Shown piece after piece: positions 15,578 to 44,285 of a stretch of DNA of 64,000 nucleotides. The position numbers and the translations under genes were made by a program. The notes beneath the pieces were generated by a model. It ran no database searches. It had not been told where the DNA came from and worked only from the letters and a program-made list of their open reading frames with translations. Source of the DNA: Phascolarctobacterium faecium DSM 14760 (lineage in GTDB: Bacteria > Bacillota > Negativicutes > Acidaminococcales > Acidaminococcaceae); NCBI RefSeq assembly GCF_003269275.1, contig NZ_QLTS01000001.1, positions 248,001 through 312,000 on the forward strand. Direction: 5' to 3'. Numbering within the stretch: the first letter of the stretch is position 1; each line of letters starts with the position of its first letter.

Positions 15578-15835
15578 TCAATTGACCAAAGTATCGAAAT
15601 AGCCTGCCTCTATCAGCTTAGCCAAAGCCAGCTCGCCGCCCTGCGGTTTAAAATCAGCTGATAAAACAGGTGCCGCCAGGCCCTCTGCACCAAGCGACAT
15701 GCCGACAGCACGGGTATTATAGCCTCCGGCGACTGCTTCCACAAAATGGGGCAGACAGAACCCGCCCAAAACGCCCGCGATCAGCAGAACTACGAATACT
15801 TTGAGACAACGATCACTCAATTTACCGTATGTCAT
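15578..15835 (-). CDS. Small hypothetical membrane-anchored or secreted protein
   Basis: An 85-codon frame that I do not recognise. It has a basic N-terminus and one hydrophobic segment (about residues 12-33, LKVFVVLLIAGVLGGFCLP), followed by a soluble tail of about 50 residues with LGAEGLAAPVLSADF and LALAKLIEAGYFD. A weak ribosome-binding site (AAAGGA) lies upstream of the ATG at 15835. It is transcribed towards the riboswitch. Codon use looks coding but there is no other support. Confidence 0.45.
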   Translation of the reverse strand: MTYGKLSDRCLKVFVVLLIAGVLGGFCLPHFVEAVAGGYNTRAVGMSLGAEGLAAPVLSADFKPQGGELALAKLIEAGYFDTLVN

Positions 15836-15949: not shown

Positions 15950-15960
15950 TTGTGTCTTAC
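15950..15960 (+). repeat. Direct repeat TTGTGTCTTAC, left of integrase gene
   Basis: TTGTGTCTTAC occurs here and again at 17095-17105 just after the integrase gene. The core GTCTTAC occurs a third time at 17110-17116. Short direct repeats around a tyrosine recombinase gene often are arm-type binding sites. Confidence 0.4.
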
Positions 15961-16010
15961 AGTTTTAAAGCTAAAATAATCTGCTAAGATAAATAAAAAG
16001 GAGGTATACT

Positions 16011-17093
16011 ATGAAAAATCCTAACGGTTACGGCGGCATCAGCAAACTGCCCGGCAACCGCCGCAAACCCTATCGTGTACGACTGACAGCAGGCTGGCAG
16101 TATCAAACAGATGGCAAACCACTGCAAAAATATCACACACTTGGTTACTATACCAGCAGACGCGCTGCCCTAATCGCACTTGCCGACTACAACAAACGCC
16201 CTTACGACTTAAATCTGCAGCATATCACTTTAGGCGAGCTTTACAACCAGTGGTATGACAAACATACCGTCCGCCTTTCACGTTCCTCACGCTGCAGTTT
16301 TACGGCAGCCTGGAAAAAATGTACTGATATTGCCAACGAACCAATCAAAAAAGTAAAAAAAGCACAAATGCAGGCAGTCCTGGATAATAATCATCACCTT
16401 TCCCCCAGTGTGCAAACGCGCTTAAAAACTATTTTCAACGGTATTTTTCGTCTCGCACTTGAAAATGATCTTATCAACGTAGACTATTCGCGTTATCTGG
16501 AAAAGAACGCTACTGCCAAACAAACATCCCGAAGTATTTTTACTCACAGTGAAATCAAATGTTTATGGAAAAATCTTGAACTGACACTGCCGCTTGCTGA
16601 CGGCAGCCGCCATCATTACAATGACGTCAGGCTGGTCGATACGGTACTGATCATGCTTTACAGCGGTATACGCATCGGCGAGCTGCTGGAAATACAAACG
16701 GCACATATCGACCTCAAAAAGCAGATTATTGACCTGCACGGTACTAAAACAAAAGCAGCACACCGTATCCTGCCACTGCATAAAGATATCGTGCCGCTTG
16801 TCGCCGCCCGTATGCACGGTAAATATCTGATCGAAACAGAAAATGGACAGCCAATAATCTACGATACCTACAAAAAACGTTTTTTTGACCTGTTAATGTC
16901 AACATTAAAAATGCAGCATAAGCCCCATGACTGCCGCCATACCTTTATCAGCGGTATGGACTCCTGCGGGATCAGCGCCGGCAGCGTTATTTTAAAACGC
17001 ATAGTTGGTCACGCCAATGCCGATGTCACCGAAAGCTACACTCACAAAAATATCCGGCAGCTTTTAACTGCAATCAACAAACTAAAATATTGA
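16011..17093 (+). CDS. Tyrosine recombinase / phage-type integrase
   Basis: A 360-residue integrase. The N-terminal AP2-like arm-binding domain (about 1-65) is followed by a SAM-like core-binding domain (about 72-165) and the catalytic domain (about 175-355). The catalytic residues are visible: Arg in LYSGIRIGELL (about 222), His-x-x-Arg in HDCRHTF (about 307-310), His in VGHANAD (about 330) and Tyr in ESYTHKN (about 339). The start has AAAGGAGG. It is immediately followed by pilin genes and a phage replication pair. It may be the integrase of a decayed mobile element, or the enzyme acting on local repeats. Confidence 0.92.
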   Translation: MKNPNGYGGISKLPGNRRKPYRVRLTAGWQYQTDGKPLQKYHTLGYYTSRRAALIALADYNKRPYDLNLQHITLGELYNQWYDKHTVRLSRSSRCSFTAAWKKCTDIANEPIKKVKKAQMQAVLDNNHHLSPSVQTRLKTIFNGIFRLALENDLINVDYSRYLEKNATAKQTSRSIFTHSEIKCLWKNLELTLPLADGSRHHYNDVRLVDTVLIMLYSGIRIGELLEIQTAHIDLKKQIIDLHGTKTKAAHRILPLHKDIVPLVAARMHGKYLIETENGQPIIYDTYKKRFFDLLMSTLKMQHKPHDCRHTFISGMDSCGISAGSVILKRIVGHANADVTESYTHKNIRQLLTAINKLKY

Positions 17094-17094
17094 T

Positions 17095-17116
17095 TTGTGT
17101 CTTACCAGAGTCTTAC
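17095..17116 (+). repeat. Direct repeats TTGTGTCTTAC and GTCTTAC, right of integrase gene
   Basis: The second copy of the 11-base repeat begins at the integrase stop codon, followed within five bases by a further GTCTTAC. See the copy at 15950. A small perfect palindrome, GCGTTTA-A-TAAACGC, lies at about 17149-17163. Confidence 0.4.
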
Positions 17117-17202
17117 AAAACGTTATAAATTTAATAAATAACCCCTGCGTTTAATAAACGCTCAGACTGCTGATACTAACTTAATGGAAATTATTAATCC
17201 TC

Positions 17203-17685
17203 TTGAATTTTACTAAAAACAGAAAAGGTTTCACTTTGGTGGAATTGGTAGTAGTAATCGCCATTATCGGTATCCTTGCCGGCATTGCTGTACCGCGCTT
17301 TTTGGATGCTACAGCATCTGCCCGTGGCTCTAAAATCATAGCAGACATGCGCACTATTCAGGCCGCAGAAATGATTTATTATGCTAAAAATGCTAAATAT
17401 CCAGCAGCGCAAAATGATTTAAATTCTTTGGTGCAAGGTAGTTGGCCTGTTCCTCCTACCGGAAAATTTATTATTGCTCAGGTTCTTAAATCAAAGTCAA
17501 CATCTCCTACTGAAGGTACTGTATCAGACACAGGCGCATATCTTTATACTCCTGATACTGCTCAAGGAGGAACAGTAACTTTAACAAATGCAACTATCAG
17601 TGCTGGCGGTGTAAGCGGTGATTTAACTTTAAATAAGCTTTTAGGTGGTACCGAAACTACAACTACTCCAGAAACTGGCAATTAA
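17203..17685 (+). CDS. Type IV pilin-like protein, weak start (variant copy)
   Basis: A 160-residue class III-signal prepilin: short basic leader, cleavage motif KGFTLVELVVVIAIIGILAG, N-terminal hydrophobic helix and a variable, threonine- and glycine-rich C-terminus. The only usable start is a TTG at 17203 without a clear ribosome-binding site, and the conserved pilin DNA stops at that point. From codon 8 to about codon 90 it is very close to the pilin at 20936-21415, while the C-terminal third differs. It could be a poorly expressed minor pilin or a silent donor cassette. It is the first gene after the integrase. Confidence 0.75.
   Translation: MNFTKNRKGFTLVELVVVIAIIGILAGIAVPRFLDATASARGSKIIADMRTIQAAEMIYYAKNAKYPAAQNDLNSLVQGSWPVPPTGKFIIAQVLKSKSTSPTEGTVSDTGAYLYTPDTAQGGTVTLTNATISAGGVSGDLTLNKLLGGTETTTTPETGN
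17223..17282 (+). repeat. Pilin N-terminal 60-bp repeat, plus-strand copy
   Basis: This stretch matches the reverse complement of 21333-21392 with a single mismatch. A 49-bp block, 17210-17258, is identical to the reverse complement of 20640-20688. The copies are in inverted orientation about 4.1 and 3.4 kb apart. Confidence 0.85.
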
Positions 17686-17695
17686 TTTATAAATA

Positions 17696-17733
17696 AATTT
17701 AAAAGAGTCAGCTAATGCTGGCTCTTTTAAATT
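17696..17733. terminator. Hairpin between two pilin genes
   Basis: Long imperfect arms AATTTAAAAGAGTCAGC and GCTGGCTCTTTTAAATT around a four-base loop, ten bases after the first pilin and 16 before the next. Confidence 0.8.
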
Positions 17734-17748
17734 ACGTTGGAGGTAATC

Positions 17749-18210
17749 ATGTTTAAAAATAATAAAGGTTTTACTTTAGTCGAATTAGTCGTAGTTATTG
17801 CAATAATCGGTATTTTAGCGGGTATCGCAATTCCTATGTATACTGATGCTACAGCAACTGCAAGAGGCGCACGCATAGTTGCCGATATGGCTACTATTCA
17901 AGAAGCATACACCGCCTATCTGGTCAAAAATGGTGGAGCACAGAAAGTAACAGGATTGCCTACCAGTGAAATCTATGATGATATCCTTCCAATGTTAGTC
18001 GAGCAAGGTTATCTAGATTTTATTCCAATTCCTCCGATCGGAAATGCTATCTTTGTTAATGCAGACGAATATTATCGTGAATTACCAGTTCCTTCTGGAG
18101 CTTATTATACATTTATTAACCATTCTGATATATCTACCTCTGATGTTTTAGTTGCTATAGAATTAGGTTGGGGTCCACAGCCTATTAACAGATTTACAAA
18201 CAAATATTAA
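17749..18210 (+). CDS. Type IV pilin-like protein
   Basis: A 153-residue prepilin starting MFKNNKGFTLVELVVVIAII with a perfect GGAGG five bases before the ATG at 17749; a start four codons earlier lies across the ribosome-binding site and is rejected. The N-terminal helix is conserved (ending AIPMYTDATATARGARIVADM), and the globular part differs from the other copies (ends ELGWGPQPINRF). PilD should process it. It follows a terminator, so transcription must come from read-through or a promoter inside the 16-base gap, which is hardly possible. Confidence 0.85.
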   Translation: MFKNNKGFTLVELVVVIAIIGILAGIAIPMYTDATATARGARIVADMATIQEAYTAYLVKNGGAQKVTGLPTSEIYDDILPMLVEQGYLDFIPIPPIGNAIFVNADEYYRELPVPSGAYYTFINHSDISTSDVLVAIELGWGPQPINRFTNKY

Positions 18211-18560: not shown

Positions 18561-19121
18561 ATGAACAATGGCTTCTTTAAGATTTATCGCGAACTTTGGG
18601 ATAAACCTATCTGGAAACAATCTACTCCGATTCAAAAAACTGTTCTTCTTACTTTGCTGTCTATGGTCAACTTCGCTCCCGCCGAATGGGAATGGCAGGG
18701 GCAAAAGTTCAGCGTGCAGCTAGGACAGACTATTACCAGCTTACAGCATATTGCCGAACGTTGTGGCAAAGGTGTCAACGCAGGTAATGTTAGGGGAGCT
18801 TTAGACCGATTTGTAAAACTTGGTTTTTTGGCAAACGAATCTACAAAGACCGGACGCCTGCTGACTGTCGTGAATTGGGGCGCTTACCAGTACCTTGATG
18901 ACGAACGGTGCACAGCTGACTGCAAAGACCTTACAAAGGCAATGCAAAGCGACTGCAAAGGCTCTGCATCTAATAAGAAGAATAAGAAAGAAGAGAAAGA
19001 TAAGAAAAATAATTTTTATCAAAACTCTTCTTTTACTTCCTTTTCCCAACAAGCCAAACCCGTACTTTCTGCTGGTGCAGCACAAATCCGTGCTTTAGCG
19101 CAGGGAGGCTGCCATGAATAA
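18561..19121 (+). CDS. Phage-type replication initiator / replisome organizer (winged helix)
   Basis: A protein of 186 residues. The N-terminal domain (about 1-110; NNGFFKIYRELWDKPIWKQS, then QTITSLQHIAERCGKG and RGALDRFVKLGFL) matches the winged-helix N-terminal region common to phage replisome organizers and DnaD-like initiators. The middle is lysine- and asparagine-rich (KKNKKEEKDKK). The ATG at 18561 has GAGGTG six bases upstream. It overlaps the next gene by 8 bases. This pair is the replication module of a phage or integrative element, presumably linked to the integrase at 16011. Confidence 0.75.
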   Translation: MNNGFFKIYRELWDKPIWKQSTPIQKTVLLTLLSMVNFAPAEWEWQGQKFSVQLGQTITSLQHIAERCGKGVNAGNVRGALDRFVKLGFLANESTKTGRLLTVVNWGAYQYLDDERCTADCKDLTKAMQSDCKGSASNKKNKKEEKDKKNNFYQNSSFTSFSQQAKPVLSAGAAQIRALAQGGCHE

Positions 19122-19629
19122 TCAGGTCACGCTGCAGGATGCAGCCAAGATCATTGATCGTTTGGGCCGTTATTTCCCTATGCTGGTAAGAAACGGCAGC
19201 GAAGTCGTAAACGACTGGTATCCGTTTATTGCGCAGTTTCCGCTAGATGTGGCGCAGGCTGCGGCGATGTATGTTATTGAAAACACCGCCTTTGATCCGC
19301 CTAAGCCTGCTGTTTTTGTGCAGGCGGCCAGAATGTTGCTGCAACATCAAACCGGACAGCGTGAACTGACTGCCGCAGAAGCATGGCACGCAGCTTGCAG
19401 GCAGCTGAACCCTTATAAAAAACCTCATTACGAAAACGAACTTGTTTCTCAGGCAGTACACGACATCGGTTATCTGAATCTCTGTACTGCTGAACACGAT
19501 ATGTTTTCCCGTTTTGAGCATGTCTATAACATTTTGCTGCAGCGTGAAAAAGATGAGTTTAAGATCGAAAGTACTCTTGCCAGTATCGGCCTGTATCAAA
19601 GTAATATCGCAAAAATCGAAGCCAAATGA
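19114..19629 (+). CDS. Phage replicative helicase loader/inhibitor-like protein
   Basis: A 171-residue, probably helical protein resembling the G39P-type helicase loader family seen next to phage replisome organizers. It has an N-terminal helix bundle (QDAAKIIDRLGRYFP, NDWYPFIAQFPLDVAQAA) with the characteristic NTAFDPPKPA segment, then a helical C-terminus. It would load or regulate the host DnaB-type helicase. The start is coupled to the preceding gene. The family call is moderate because the proteins are small and divergent. Confidence 0.6.
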   Translation: MNNQVTLQDAAKIIDRLGRYFPMLVRNGSEVVNDWYPFIAQFPLDVAQAAAMYVIENTAFDPPKPAVFVQAARMLLQHQTGQRELTAAEAWHAACRQLNPYKKPHYENELVSQAVHDIGYLNLCTAEHDMFSRFEHVYNILLQREKDEFKIESTLASIGLYQSNIAKIEAK

Positions 19630-19668
19630 AATAATCCCCGTTGACGCATAGCGTCAGCGGGGATTATT
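19630..19668. terminator. Hairpin terminator after phage replication pair
   Basis: Outer arms AATAATCCCCG/CGGGGATTATT enclose an inner stem TGACGC/GCGTCA. It lies immediately after the loader stop. Confidence 0.8.
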
Positions 19669-19680
19669 CTTTAAAGCTTG

Positions 19681-19709
19681 TTTTATTAAATTTCAGGTAT
19701 TTTTAAAAT
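19681..19709 (+). repeat. 29-bp inverted repeat, left copy
   Basis: The reverse complement of this stretch matches 20851-20879 with one mismatch in 29. The two copies bracket a 1.14 kb segment that holds two minus-strand pilin genes. Confidence 0.75.
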
Positions 19710-19719
19710 CGTTTATAAT

Positions 19720-20208
19720 TTACCAATTTCCTAAAATATACTGTTCGATAAAAATTGAGTATGGAACACCGCTAGTGCCAGTACCTAATCCATTAATAAA
19801 AGATACTGTTATTTTTCTCTTATTTTCACTGCTGCCTACACCACTGCTTGCTTTCTCTATGCCGTATGAACAATTATTTAGTGCTATTCTATTACCGCTA
19901 ACTGCATAGTAATAATCGCCTTGAGGAGCTGTTGGCACTGCATATAAAAAACCTTTATCAACAATGTCTTTAAAAACTTTTGCACCGTTAGCTTTTTGAT
20001 CATCCGTAAGGCCATCAATGGTATTACCTGCTGCCATATATTGTTCAACAGCGCTCTGCAAAGTACGCATATCGGCCGCCGCTCTGGCGGTTCTGGTTTT
20101 AGCCTGCGAATCAAGAAAATGAGGAATCGCAAGTCCTGCCAATATCCCAATAACAGCAATGACTATCACAAGTTCAACTAAAGTGAAACCTTTATTATAT
20201 TTGCACAT
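19720..20208 (-). CDS. Type IV pilin-like protein
   Basis: A 162-residue prepilin, MCKYNKGFTLVELVIVIAVI, with AAGGAG properly placed before the ATG at 20208. The hydrophobic N-terminal helix ends LAIPHFLDSQAKTRTARAAAD, and the globular part is distinct (ADMRTLQSAVEQYMAAGNT; C-terminus IFIEQYILGNW). It is the most divergent of the five pilins here and so may be a minor pilin. It lies inside the 29-bp inverted repeat and follows the terminator of the next pilin copy. Confidence 0.85.
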   Translation of the reverse strand: MCKYNKGFTLVELVIVIAVIGILAGLAIPHFLDSQAKTRTARAAADMRTLQSAVEQYMAAGNTIDGLTDDQKANGAKVFKDIVDKGFLYAVPTAPQGDYYYAVSGNRIALNNCSYGIEKASSGVGSSENKRKITVSFINGLGTGTSGVPYSIFIEQYILGNW

Positions 20209-20232
20209 AACTTCTCCTTCTAGTATTAAAAT

Positions 20233-20271
20233 AAATAGGCAGATAGGCTGTAATTTCCTATCTGCCTATTT
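20233..20271. terminator. Hairpin terminator after start-less pilin
   Basis: A perfect 15-bp stem, AAATAGGCAGATAGG with its complement, lies five bases beyond the stop codon of the pilin at 20276. Confidence 0.85.
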
Positions 20272-20275
20272 GAAA

Positions 20276-20692
20276 TTAGTTATTTTTTCTAGTCATTAAA
20301 GTTTTTAAATCTATATTTGTGCCAGCGTTAATGGTAACAGTTTTAGGAGTAACACCATTATTCGGTGTTACGGTATAAGATGTTACAGCAGCTTTGATTT
20401 CACCAGCTTGATTAGTTTCAGCCACTTTAAAAGCACCAATCGGTGGAATCGGTTCAACTGCTAAATATCCATTATCTACTAATTCTTTCATAGTAGCAAA
20501 TTGACCTTTTTCTGCATAATACATAGATTCTGCACTTTCGATAGTTCGCAAATCAGCAACTAATCTTGAACCACGAGCATTAGTTGTAGCATCCATAAAC
20601 CGTGGAATCGCCAACCCTGCTAAAATACCTAAAATGGCAATTACTACTACCAATTCCACCAAAGTGAAACCTTTTCTGTTTTTAGTAATCAG
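20276..20692 (-). CDS. Type IV pilin-like copy without a start codon (silent cassette candidate)
   Basis: The pilin frame extends back to 20692 and reads ITKNRKGFTLVELVVVIAIL, but a TAA (20693-20695) precedes it and there is no ATG, GTG or TTG before the cleavage site. The first GTG, at 20662, lies inside the signal motif. The body is otherwise an intact pilin (MDATTNARGSRLVADLRTI, then a variable C-terminus ending LKTLMTRKNN) with its own terminator. The truncated 5' end falls at the same place as in the copy at 17203. It is best explained as a silent donor copy, or a pseudogene. Confidence 0.7.
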   Translation of the reverse strand: MITKNRKGFTLVELVVVIAILGILAGLAIPRFMDATTNARGSRLVADLRTIESAESMYYAEKGQFATMKELVDNGYLAVEPIPPIGAFKVAETNQAGEIKAAVTSYTVTPNNGVTPKTVTINAGTNIDLKTLMTRKNN

Positions 20693-20850
20693 TTAGTTTG
20701 TTCAGAAGTAAATATATTTATAATAAAAATACTTATGTATTAGCGTCATTAGGGATCTTTTACCTTGTAGTTTAATTTAATGCACAACTTATAATTTGCT
20801 AATTAATAGAGAAGCTGTTTAGTGTGATCTTTATTTAAGTGAAAAATAAC

Positions 20851-20879
20851 ATTTTAAAAATACCTGAAATTTTATAAAA
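20851..20879 (+). repeat. 29-bp inverted repeat, right copy
   Basis: Matches the reverse complement of 19681-19709 with one mismatch. It lies in the 240-base AT-rich spacer 20696-20935, where I see no gene. Confidence 0.75.
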
Positions 20880-20887
20880 TTGGTCAA

Positions 20888-20917
20888 AAAAACGACTGAC
20901 AAATGTCAGTCGTTTTT
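20888..20917. terminator. Hairpin terminator after major pilin
   Basis: Arms AAAAACGACTGAC and GTCAGTCGTTTTT with a four-base loop lie 18 bases after the pilin stop at 20936. Confidence 0.88.
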
Positions 20918-20935
20918 AAACATTGAAAATTATTA

Positions 20936-21415
20936 TTAACTTTCAGGTGTAGTAACCTGTTGATCTCCACCTAAAAGAACCGTTAACGTATAACTTGAGC
21001 CGTCAACACCTGTAAGACCAGTAGCACCTGTTAATGTAATTGTTCCCGAAGCACCATCTTTTCCTGCAGTATAAGTATATGCCGCACCATCACCAGCAAC
21101 ACCTTCTGTAGTACCGCCACCTTTTTTTAATACTTGGGCGATAATAAATTTACCAGTTGGAACACCAGGCCAGTTACCTTGGACTAAATCAGCAAAATCA
21201 TTTTGTGCAGTTGGGTATTTAGCATTTTTGGCATAATAAATCATTTCTGCCGATTGGATGGTACGCATGTCAGCTACGATTTTTGCGCCGCGGGCAGATG
21301 CAGTAGCATCAAGAAAACGCGGAACTGCGATACCGGCAAGGATACCGATAATGGCGATTACTACTACCAGTTCCACCAAAGTGAAACCTTTTTGGTTTTT
21401 AATAAAATTTTTCAT
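20936..21415 (-). CDS. pilA: Type IV major pilin (complete, expressed copy)
   Basis: A 159-residue prepilin, MKNFIKNQKGFTLVELVVVI, with the helix ending GIAVPRFLDATASARGAKIV and a threonine/glycine-rich C-terminus. This is the only copy with all expression signals: a promoter with ideal spacing 80 bases upstream, a ribosome-binding region (AAGGGATG), an ATG and a strong terminator. It lies just downstream of pilC in the usual assembly-gene order. It is therefore the likely major subunit, polymerised by PilB/PilC and retracted by PilT. The symbol is by role, not by proven orthology. Confidence 0.88.
   Translation of the reverse strand: MKNFIKNQKGFTLVELVVVIAIIGILAGIAVPRFLDATASARGAKIVADMRTIQSAEMIYYAKNAKYPTAQNDFADLVQGNWPGVPTGKFIIAQVLKKGGGTTEGVAGDGAAYTYTAGKDGASGTITLTGATGLTGVDGSSYTLTVLLGGDQQVTTPES
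21333..21392 (-). repeat. Pilin N-terminal 60-bp repeat, minus-strand copy
   Basis: Inverted partner of 17223-17282 (59 of 60 identical). It encodes KGFTLVELVVVIAIIGILAG of the expressed pilin. Confidence 0.85.
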
Positions 21416-21493: not shown

Positions 21494-21522
21494 ATAATAA
21501 CTCTTTTTTAAACTTTTATCAA
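21494..21522 (-). promoter_or_regulatory. Promoter of the major pilin gene
   Basis: On the minus strand, TTGATA (21522-21517) and TATTAT (21499-21494) are separated by exactly 17 bases, 79 bases upstream of the pilin ATG. None of the other pilin copies has so clear a promoter. Confidence 0.65.
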
Positions 21523-21551: not shown

Positions 21552-22766
21552 TTATAAGCTCCCTACTTTTGTAACTATTTCAAACATCGGCAGTAAAAGA
21601 GCTACTGCCAGCGTACCGATAATGACGCCTAAAATAACTATCAGGATCGGGTCCATGGTAGTCTGCAGTCTTCCGATAGTATCATCTACCTCGGCGCCGT
21701 AGAAGTCGGCGACCTTATCAAGCATGGTATCCAGAGCGCCGGTTTCTTCGCCAATATTTACTAAGCTGATAACGATTGGCGGAAACATACCGCTGGCTTC
21801 CATAGGATCTGCCAAAGTACGGCCTCGCCTTAAGCTGCCGCGGGCCTGATTAAGTACTCTTTCAGCCTGCAGACTTCCTGTAGCCTTGCTGACAATGGTC
21901 ATAGCGTTTAAGATCGGCACGCCGCTGCGTGACAAGCTGGCAAAAGTACGGGCAAAACGGGTAATGATGATTTTGTTATATAAGTCTCCGAAAATAGGTA
22001 CTTTCAAATAAACACCATCACGCCACAGGCGAAAACTTTCTTTAGTACCGGCCCATTTATAAAGCAGGAACAGGCCGATCAGTGCGGCAATAACCAAATA
22101 CCAGTAATGGCCAAGGAAATTGCTGATGCCGATAACGACACGGGTGACAAATGGAAGTTCGATTTTAAGCTGTTCAAACAAGCCGACAAAAACCGGCATA
22201 ACGAACATCATAATAATAGCAACCACAATAGCAGCTACCGATAAAACTATTGCCGGATAAATCATAGCTGATTTAAATTTGGCATTCATTCGATAATCTT
22301 TTTCAAACTGTGCTGCCAAACGATCCATAACGATTTCTAAAATACCGCCGGCCTCGCCTGCTGCTACCATGTTAGTCATCAGCTCGGGAAAGACTTTAGG
22401 GAACTCGGCCATAGCTGCCGACAATGCTTTACCTTCACGGACACTGGTAGTTATCTGCCCTAAAACAGTACGCAGACGCTCTTTAGCAGATTGCTGAGTT
22501 AGTATCTCCAGCCCTGTTAAAAGCGGTACACCGGCTCCCAGCAGAGTTGCAAACTGGCGGGCAAAAATCGAGATGTCATAAAGATTGATACTTTCCTCAA
22601 AAAGTACTCCCGAAAACAGCCCTTTCTTTTTAGAAGCTTCAATGCCAGCCACATACATGTCCTGTTTACGGATAAAGGCGGCTACGGCAGCTTCGTTAGG
22701 GGCGTTGACTGTGCCATAAACTACAGCACCATCACGTTTACGTGCTTTATATTTAAATTGCTCCAA
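21552..22766 (-). CDS. pilC: PilC, type IV pilus inner-membrane platform protein
   Basis: A 404-residue GspF-family protein with two homologous T2SSF domains (about 68-191 and 271-393), each followed by membrane segments near 170-195, 220-240 and 377-400. The repeated motifs FARQFATLLGAGVPLLTGLE and FARTFASLSRSGVPILNAM mark the domains. It anchors the extension and retraction ATPases at the pilus base. The start is TTG at 22766 with AGGAGG nine bases upstream. It follows pilT by 21 bases. Confidence 0.93.
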   Translation of the reverse strand: MEQFKYKARKRDGAVVYGTVNAPNEAAVAAFIRKQDMYVAGIEASKKKGLFSGVLFEESINLYDISIFARQFATLLGAGVPLLTGLEILTQQSAKERLRTVLGQITTSVREGKALSAAMAEFPKVFPELMTNMVAAGEAGGILEIVMDRLAAQFEKDYRMNAKFKSAMIYPAIVLSVAAIVVAIIMMFVMPVFVGLFEQLKIELPFVTRVVIGISNFLGHYWYLVIAALIGLFLLYKWAGTKESFRLWRDGVYLKVPIFGDLYNKIIITRFARTFASLSRSGVPILNAMTIVSKATGSLQAERVLNQARGSLRRGRTLADPMEASGMFPPIVISLVNIGEETGALDTMLDKVADFYGAEVDDTIGRLQTTMDPILIVILGVIIGTLAVALLLPMFEIVTKVGSL

Positions 22767-40874: not shown

Positions 40875-41135
40875 CATTATAGCACTTGTGTACCCCCCCA
40901 CAAGACATACAAGAACTTTTTTACGACGCAGTTTGTTGCCGTTATTGCCCATAAGGTTTGCTAGCCGCCAAAGTTTTAAATTATTATCAGCCTGCAACTG
41001 CCATTACGGTGCAGCTTATTTATTAAAACCGCTTTCAATAAACAAAAACCGCCTGCATTTTAAACAGGCGGTAAAAACAACAAAAAACGCAGACTGTCAG
41101 AAGCAGTCTGCGTTCAAATCACTTATTAAGTTTTA
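40875..41135 (+). repeat. 261-bp direct repeat, left copy
   Basis: Nearly identical to 44025-44285 (about a dozen substitutions and two compensating one-base A-run indels). It contains a run of seven C, and two hairpins. The repeats flank the autotransporter gene. The remaining spacer 40754-40874 is AT-rich and holds the promoter region of the Tps pair. Confidence 0.93.
41049..41114 (-). terminator. Paired hairpins after autotransporter gene
   Basis: Two stems: CCGCCTG/CAGGCGG (41049-41071) and AACGCAGACTG/CAGTCTGCGTT (41086-41114), the latter followed by T residues on the minus strand. They lie inside the left 261-bp repeat. Confidence 0.8.
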
Positions 41136-44024: not shown

Positions 44025-44285
44025 CATTATAGCACTTCTGTACCCCCCCACAAGACATACAGGAACTTTTTTACGACGCAGTTTGTTGCCGTTATTGCCC
44101 ATACGGTTTGATAGCCGCCAAAGTTTTAAATTATTATCAGCCTACAACTACCATTACGGTGCAGCTTATTTATTAAGACCGCTTTCAATAAACAAAACCG
44201 CCTGCATTTTAAACAGGCGGTAAAAACAACAAAAAAACGCAGACTGTCAGAAACAGTCTGCGTTCAAATCACTTATTAAGTTTTA
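44025..44285 (+). repeat. 261-bp direct repeat, right copy
   Basis: Second copy of 40875-41135, spacing 3150 bp. Its right edge reaches into the stop codon (44283-44285) of the Nudix gene, so its hairpins (44236-44264 among them) act as that gene's terminator. The spacer 43860-44024 is AT-rich without a gene. Confidence 0.93.
44236..44264 (-). terminator. Terminator after Nudix gene
   Basis: AACGCAGACTG/CAGTCTGCGTT stem followed by seven T on the minus strand, inside the right 261-bp repeat. Confidence 0.82.

Follow-up and report, generated by a model that had tools for sequence, protein, structure and literature searches.

The region from 17.2 to 21.5 kb of a 64-kb stretch of Phascolarctobacterium faecium DSM 14760 DNA (the window, meaning the whole 64,000 nucleotides analysed) has about an even chance of being a pilin-variation locus, in which one complete pilin gene (pilin E) would act as the expression site, while two silent tail cassettes, pilin A with pilin B and pilin C with pilin D, would be exchanged into it at a block of coding sequence common to A, C and E. 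This reading draws on the anatomy of the locus and on codon patterns in one genome, which is also the one genome that represents the genus.

Five pilin genes lie within 4.2 kb, A and B on the forward strand and D, C and E on the reverse strand (Table 1). All five carry the prepilin methylation motif and encode short GspG/PilA-like pilins of approximately 140–160 residues. Each of the headless genes, A and C, is followed by a hairpin and then by a second pilin that has a ribosome-binding site of its own and lacks a clear promoter, so that A+B and C+D look like two cassettes, each made up of a major-type and a second pilin. A TTG start is conceivable for pilin A, although it would be without a ribosome-binding site. 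In a scan of approximately 60 pilin starts of relatives with a rough script, a single one lacked both an ATG and a ribosome-binding site, compared with two of the five here. Upstream of the recombinase gene, a small minus-strand open reading frame (ORF, 15578–15835) has a hydrophobic N-terminus and a pilin-like tail, lacks the GFTLVE motif and is preceded by a strong promoter-like site (TTCACA-16-TATAAT); a glycine riboswitch (RF00504, 15320–15414) is located upstream of a sodium:alanine/glycine-type symporter gene.

Table 1. Positions in the window, strands and properties of the pilin genes, repeats, signals and neighbouring genes.
Feature	Position	Strand	Properties
Tyrosine recombinase, phage-integrase type	16011..17093	+	PF00589, 4.2e-16; phrog_1 integrase, 7.1e-41; GIRIGE, HDCRH, GH and Y motifs by eye
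Pilin A, headless	17203..17685	+	No ATG, no Shine-Dalgarno; intact 160-codon frame; 71% amino acid identity to E
49-bp perfect inverted repeat, 5' end of pilin A	17210..17258	+	Candidate crossover block
Pilin B	17749..18210	+	Own Shine-Dalgarno and ATG; directly after hairpin at ~17700-17728; no obvious promoter
DnaD-like helicase loader, phage type	18561..19121	+	phrog_2514, 1.2e-23
Phage-type replication protein	19114..19629	+	phrog_9804; weak match to helicase loader
Hairpin terminator of ORF 19114-19629	19630..19668	+	Just outside left 29-bp arm
Left arm of 29-bp inverted repeat, TTTTATTAAATTTCAGGTATTTTTAAAAT	19681..19709	+	10 bp beyond pilin D stop
Pilin D	19720..20208	-	Own Shine-Dalgarno and ATG; after hairpin at ~20233-20270; no clear promoter
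Pilin C, headless	20276..20692	-	TAA immediately 5' of CTG ATT ACT AAA; no ATG or Shine-Dalgarno; intact frame
49-bp perfect inverted repeat, 5' end of pilin C	20640..20688	-	
Right arm of 29-bp inverted repeat	20851..20879	-	Between pilin E terminator and headless pilin C
Hairpin terminator of pilin E	20886..20918 (approximate ends)	-	Just outside right 29-bp arm; read from sequence
Pilin E, complete gene, likely expression site	20936..21415	-	Ribosome-binding site and ATG; adjoins pilC
Matching 5' block of pilin E	21333..21409	-	Exact 22- and 37-bp stretches common with A
Predicted sigma-70-like promoter of pilin E	21494..21522	-	TTGATA-17-TATTAT, 10/12; consensus match only
pilC, type IV pilus/T2SS inner-membrane protein	21552..22766	-	pilT then pilB upstream

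Pilins A and C share, in opposite orientations, a block at their 5' ends that is identical at all 49 positions; no exact inverted repeat elsewhere in the window is as long. The DNA 5' of this block is unrelated in the two genes, and the sequences diverge quickly 3' of it. Only three copies of the block are present in the genome, those of A, C and E, and pilin E departs from the other two at 4–5 positions within it. A matches C exactly over 17210–17258 and E exactly over 17246–17282, and it is 83% identical to E over 285 bp in inverted orientation. Within the block, 11 of 12 synonymous codons are common to A and C, compared with 12 of 27 just after it (Fisher p ~0.01). B and D encode the same amino acids in this region and have only 4–5 of 11–12 synonymous codons in common with A, C and E, so conservation of the protein fails to explain the identity of the block. 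The codon pattern thus points to a common joining point in the three genes that would need one (A, C and E), and to none in B and D, each with a start of its own. The 49-mer contains no clear half-site dyad, its symmetry being no greater than that of shuffled sequences. Identical in A and C and near-intact in E, the block appears a better candidate for a crossover site than the 29-bp inverted repeat around C and D, which is the weaker repeat of the locus, although matching synonymous codons could also stem from past duplication or conversion and have no present function. Elsewhere in the window, a near-perfect direct repeat of approximately 250 bp occupies 40889–41135 and 44039–44285, 3150 bp apart.

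The absence of an ATG and a Shine-Dalgarno sequence in A and C is consistent with a second explanation, that these genes are decaying duplicates that became pseudogenes after losing their 5' ends. This is quite improbable, since neither frame contains stops or frameshifts, the dN/dS ratio between A and E is low, and the perfect A/C block stands against a synonymous codon identity of only ~40–50% beyond it. Over codons 26–90, dN between A and E is 0.10 and dS is ~1.0, which indicates that the protein sequence of pilin A has been conserved even though it now seems to lack any means of initiating translation. Silent cassettes with occasional expression should have intact frames, as A and C do; recent decay would also fit.

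In a pilin-variation locus of the proposed kind, headless A and C would be tails, intact pilin frames that open with the same 5' coding block. A crossover within the block would leave the promoter, ribosome-binding site and ATG of E in place and swap the sequence downstream. Because A is inverted relative to E, exchange between the two would take the form of a reversible 4.1-kb inversion, bringing A, together with B, behind the E head. The orientation of C relative to E is direct, and a simple crossover between them would therefore delete the E tail with loss of its DNA, whereas gene conversion would not. Speculatively, a flip of C+D at the 29-bp repeat would invert C and so make its exchange with E reversible too. 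A fuller version of this mechanism is a chromosomal shuffling of the major pilin, in which a phage-type tyrosine recombinase acts on the 5' coding block, the cassettes hold two genes, and a nested inversion at the 29-bp repeat sets the orientation, and hence the reversibility, of one cassette; as a whole, this version is unlikely. That recombination takes place, that it is carried out by the adjacent tyrosine recombinase or by RecA, and that the 29-bp repeat serves in crossover are all steps that we infer.

The tyrosine recombinase gene is intact and its 3' end is located 117 bp from the block of pilin A. The match to phrog_1 and to phage integrases covers the protein up to residue 358 of 360, so that a C-terminal extension is absent. 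In the window, the 9-mer GTGTCTTAC is found only in the two flanks of the recombinase gene (15950–15961 and 17095–17117), with a further GTCTTAC 11 bp beyond the copy in the 3' flank; these copies could be integrase arm-type binding sites, a weak pattern that was picked out after looking. Relatives of the recombinase within the class are approximately 35% identical, and none of the homologues in the family and the class is located beside pilins. Two phage-type replication genes (18561–19629) sit between the two pilin cassettes, and no other phage genes were recognised nearby. Searches of viral contigs with ORF 19114–19629, pilin C, the recombinase and both repeat cores returned no relatives or matches, and a distant DNA search of phage records with the phage-like genes found none. 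The integrase and the neighbouring phage replication genes may be a prophage remnant.

Since the integrase is of phage type, has its class relatives away from pilins and may belong to such a remnant, RecA-dependent exchange has to be considered as an alternative. In this case, the silent copies would be converted into E in the manner of Neisseria and the integrase would be an unrelated remnant of a prophage, as the DnaD-like and loader genes near it suggest. The headless donors have 5' homology with E, and A is a mosaic of stretches exact to C (17210–17258) and to E (17246–17282), both of which suit conversion. However, there are only two donors, and their identity is limited to the 5' block, whereas the silent copies of Neisseria are without the 5' constant region and have later blocks in common (PMC6796969). 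Gene conversion also needs neither the inverted orientation nor the adjacency of a recombinase, and on this evidence it is a possible but somewhat unlikely account of the locus.

The same phage-type genes could instead record a phage or island that integrated within a pilin gene at its 5' end, much as some integrases target the dusA 5' end, with the headless pilins being gene ends displaced at att sites. The 3' end of the integrase gene lies beside the block, and the phage-type replication genes stand between A/B and C/D, as such an event would predict. Sites of this kind must be direct repeats, however, and the A–C and A–E pairs are inverted, so that a later inversion would be needed, and no related phage was found in the phage records and viral contigs searched; this origin is quite improbable, about as much so as decay of A and C.

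The points counted in favour of a pilin-variation locus are the sharing of the block by A, C and E and not by B and D, the missing starts and their rarity in relatives, the intact frames, the pilC loci of the nearest relatives with no opposite-strand pilins, the start signals of E and the recombinase close by. Those counted against it are the class relatives of the recombinase that stand away from pilins, the phage neighbours, the lack of a clear dyad in the 49-mer, the mismatches in the E block and the possible TTG start of A.

The 29-bp inverted repeat was the starting point of the sequence-only reading, which had proposed it as a possible crossover site of an invertible segment with two minus-strand pilins. 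The reported agreement of the two arms at 28 of 29 positions was reproduced, and it is far above chance: the best inverted 29-mer match was 23 of 29 in 300 dinucleotide shuffles of the 1.8-kb region, and also 23 in 2000 mononucleotide shuffles restricted to the AT-rich intergenic stretches (22% GC). Two minus-strand pilins, D and C, do lie in the 1141-nt spacer, although the earlier account did not mention that the second of these, C, is without ATG and Shine-Dalgarno sequence. The arms were also rightly described as separate from the pilin frames and terminators, since they overlap no reading frame and lie slightly inward of the terminators that end the neighbouring genes. A terminator hairpin stands ~10 bp outward of each arm, belonging to ORF 19114–19629 on the left and to pilin E on the right, so that the enclosed segment is one terminator-bounded unit. 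The recombinase, placed by the same reading 3 kb away, ends 2.6 kb from the left arm.

Across the 2.3-Mb genome, the 22-bp exact core of the repeat, with up to three mismatches allowed, occurs in two places only, the two arms, and no further complete copy of the 29-mer was found. Being real and unique in the genome, the repeat is not a common intergenic element scattered over unrelated sites. One weak third look-alike (C4:53427–53466, or L013:1035–1075) is 85% identical with a 3-nt gap, resembles the right arm and its inner flank, and stands just before a hairpin; as a single, gapped copy it was dropped as a candidate dispersed element.

The idea that the repeat is itself the crossover site, with segment 19710–20850 flipped by the nearby tyrosine recombinase, is possible but unlikely. 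The uniqueness of the 28-of-29 match, its symmetric placement just inside two terminators, the intact recombinase and the setting in what may be a rearranging pilin locus fit this proposal, and the repeat can be read as a recombinase site with two AT-rich arms around TTCAGGT. The half-site symmetry of the 29-mer is nevertheless not above that of shuffled sequences (27% of shuffles were as good). Promoter-like matches inside the bounded segment reach 9 of 12 at best and show no excess over shuffles beyond ~2 standard deviations. Above all, inversion of this segment alone would join neither pilin to a promoter or start codon, as a terminator stands outside each arm and C is without an ATG in either orientation. 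The proposal is thus not accepted as it stands, because the flip by itself would leave both C and D off.

The inverted ends also raise the question of whether the C+D pair is an insertion with 29-bp terminal inverted repeats, such as a non-autonomous transposon or cassette, in which the repeat has no role today. TTG is present at both flanks (19678–19680 and 20880–20882) and could be a 3-bp target duplication, and one arm has the weak look-alike elsewhere in the genome. A 3-bp flank match is weak, however, there is no transposase, a second complete copy is absent from the genome and viral contigs gave no matches, which makes an insertion of this kind improbable. Within a pilin-variation locus, the 29-bp repeat would mark the ends of the C+D cassette, which it brackets exactly, and may let that cassette flip.

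No pilins on opposite strands were found at the seven nearest pilC loci; the nearest relatives have one pilin, or one and a second, after pilC and on the same strand. In a search of genome contigs with PilC, the best relative outside was 42% identical, which is too distant for synteny at the pilin locus. Two methanotroph genomes contain long, exact inverted repeats at a distance of at most several kb from pilC (L048:11017–13554 and L079:16001–17378), and no pilin was recognised inside either of them.

If the pilin-variation reading is true, pilin switching by DNA rearrangement would reach a lineage outside the proteobacteria, where a literature search found no such report, and the switch would change a protein on the surface hairs of the bacterium. 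The main pilin and a second one would then travel in the same cassette, and a phage integrase would have been co-opted to work within pilin coding sequence.

Several known systems share parts of this arrangement. In Moraxella bovis and M. lacunata, the C-terminal part of the type IV pilin is exchanged by inversion between inverted repeats located in and downstream of the expressed gene, giving two variants (PMC9585708, PMC4073114), and a second version goes unexpressed. The locus here, known from one genome sequence and with its inversion inferred, is similar in that inverted repeats lie in the 5' coding regions of pilins and set an expressed against a silent tail (49 bp between A and C; 83% over 285 bp between A and E), and in that the silent copies A and C are without a start. 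It differs in its pair of headless cassettes, one of which is direct and the other inverted relative to E and each of which includes a second pilin, and in the additional 29-bp inverted repeat. The enzyme encoded next to the cassettes belongs to the tyrosine recombinases (PF00589) and is not Piv, the Moraxella enzyme, which is related to IS110-type enzymes rather than to tyrosine recombinases.

In the R64 shufflon, the tyrosine recombinase Rci is encoded beside startless ends of a type IV pilus gene, which are present in both orientations and have a common recombination block (PMC11852207). Here too, a tyrosine recombinase gene adjoins the cassettes at a distance of 117 bp from the block, although it encodes a phage-type integrase without the C-terminal extension of Rci. 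The shufflon is plasmid-borne, and its 31-bp sfx sites (12-7-12) serve to vary the C-terminal end of PilV, a minor tip protein, whereas the variable genes of this locus are short GspG/PilA-like pilins with a 49-bp common block of 5' coding sequence, present in three copies, in which inspection recognised no 12-7-12 structure.

Neisseria has one complete pilin gene that is expressed (pilE), and its silent copies (pilS) have neither promoter nor ribosome-binding site (PMC6796969); A and C likewise have no ribosome-binding site and lie beside one complete pilin, E. The silent copies of Neisseria number up to 19, are without the 5' constant region and act by gene conversion, whereas there are two donors here, the 5' region they contain is their most identical part, and a recombinase gene lies next to them. 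The RecV switches of C. difficile (PMC5903667) also combine short inverted repeats flanking a segment with a tyrosine recombinase, and the segment bounded by the 29-bp repeat is alike in both respects. In such switches the inverted DNA is usually a promoter or a 5' untranslated region, whereas the 29-bp repeat encloses coding sequence and no clear promoter, with terminators outside both arms. The locus may function as the Moraxella, shufflon and Neisseria systems do but is placed in none of them, because it has no Piv, has neither PilV nor an Rci-type extension, and its donors hold the 5' region; in design it appears closest to the pilin inversion of Moraxella bovis and the R64 shufflon, and it resembles Neisseria pilE/pilS.
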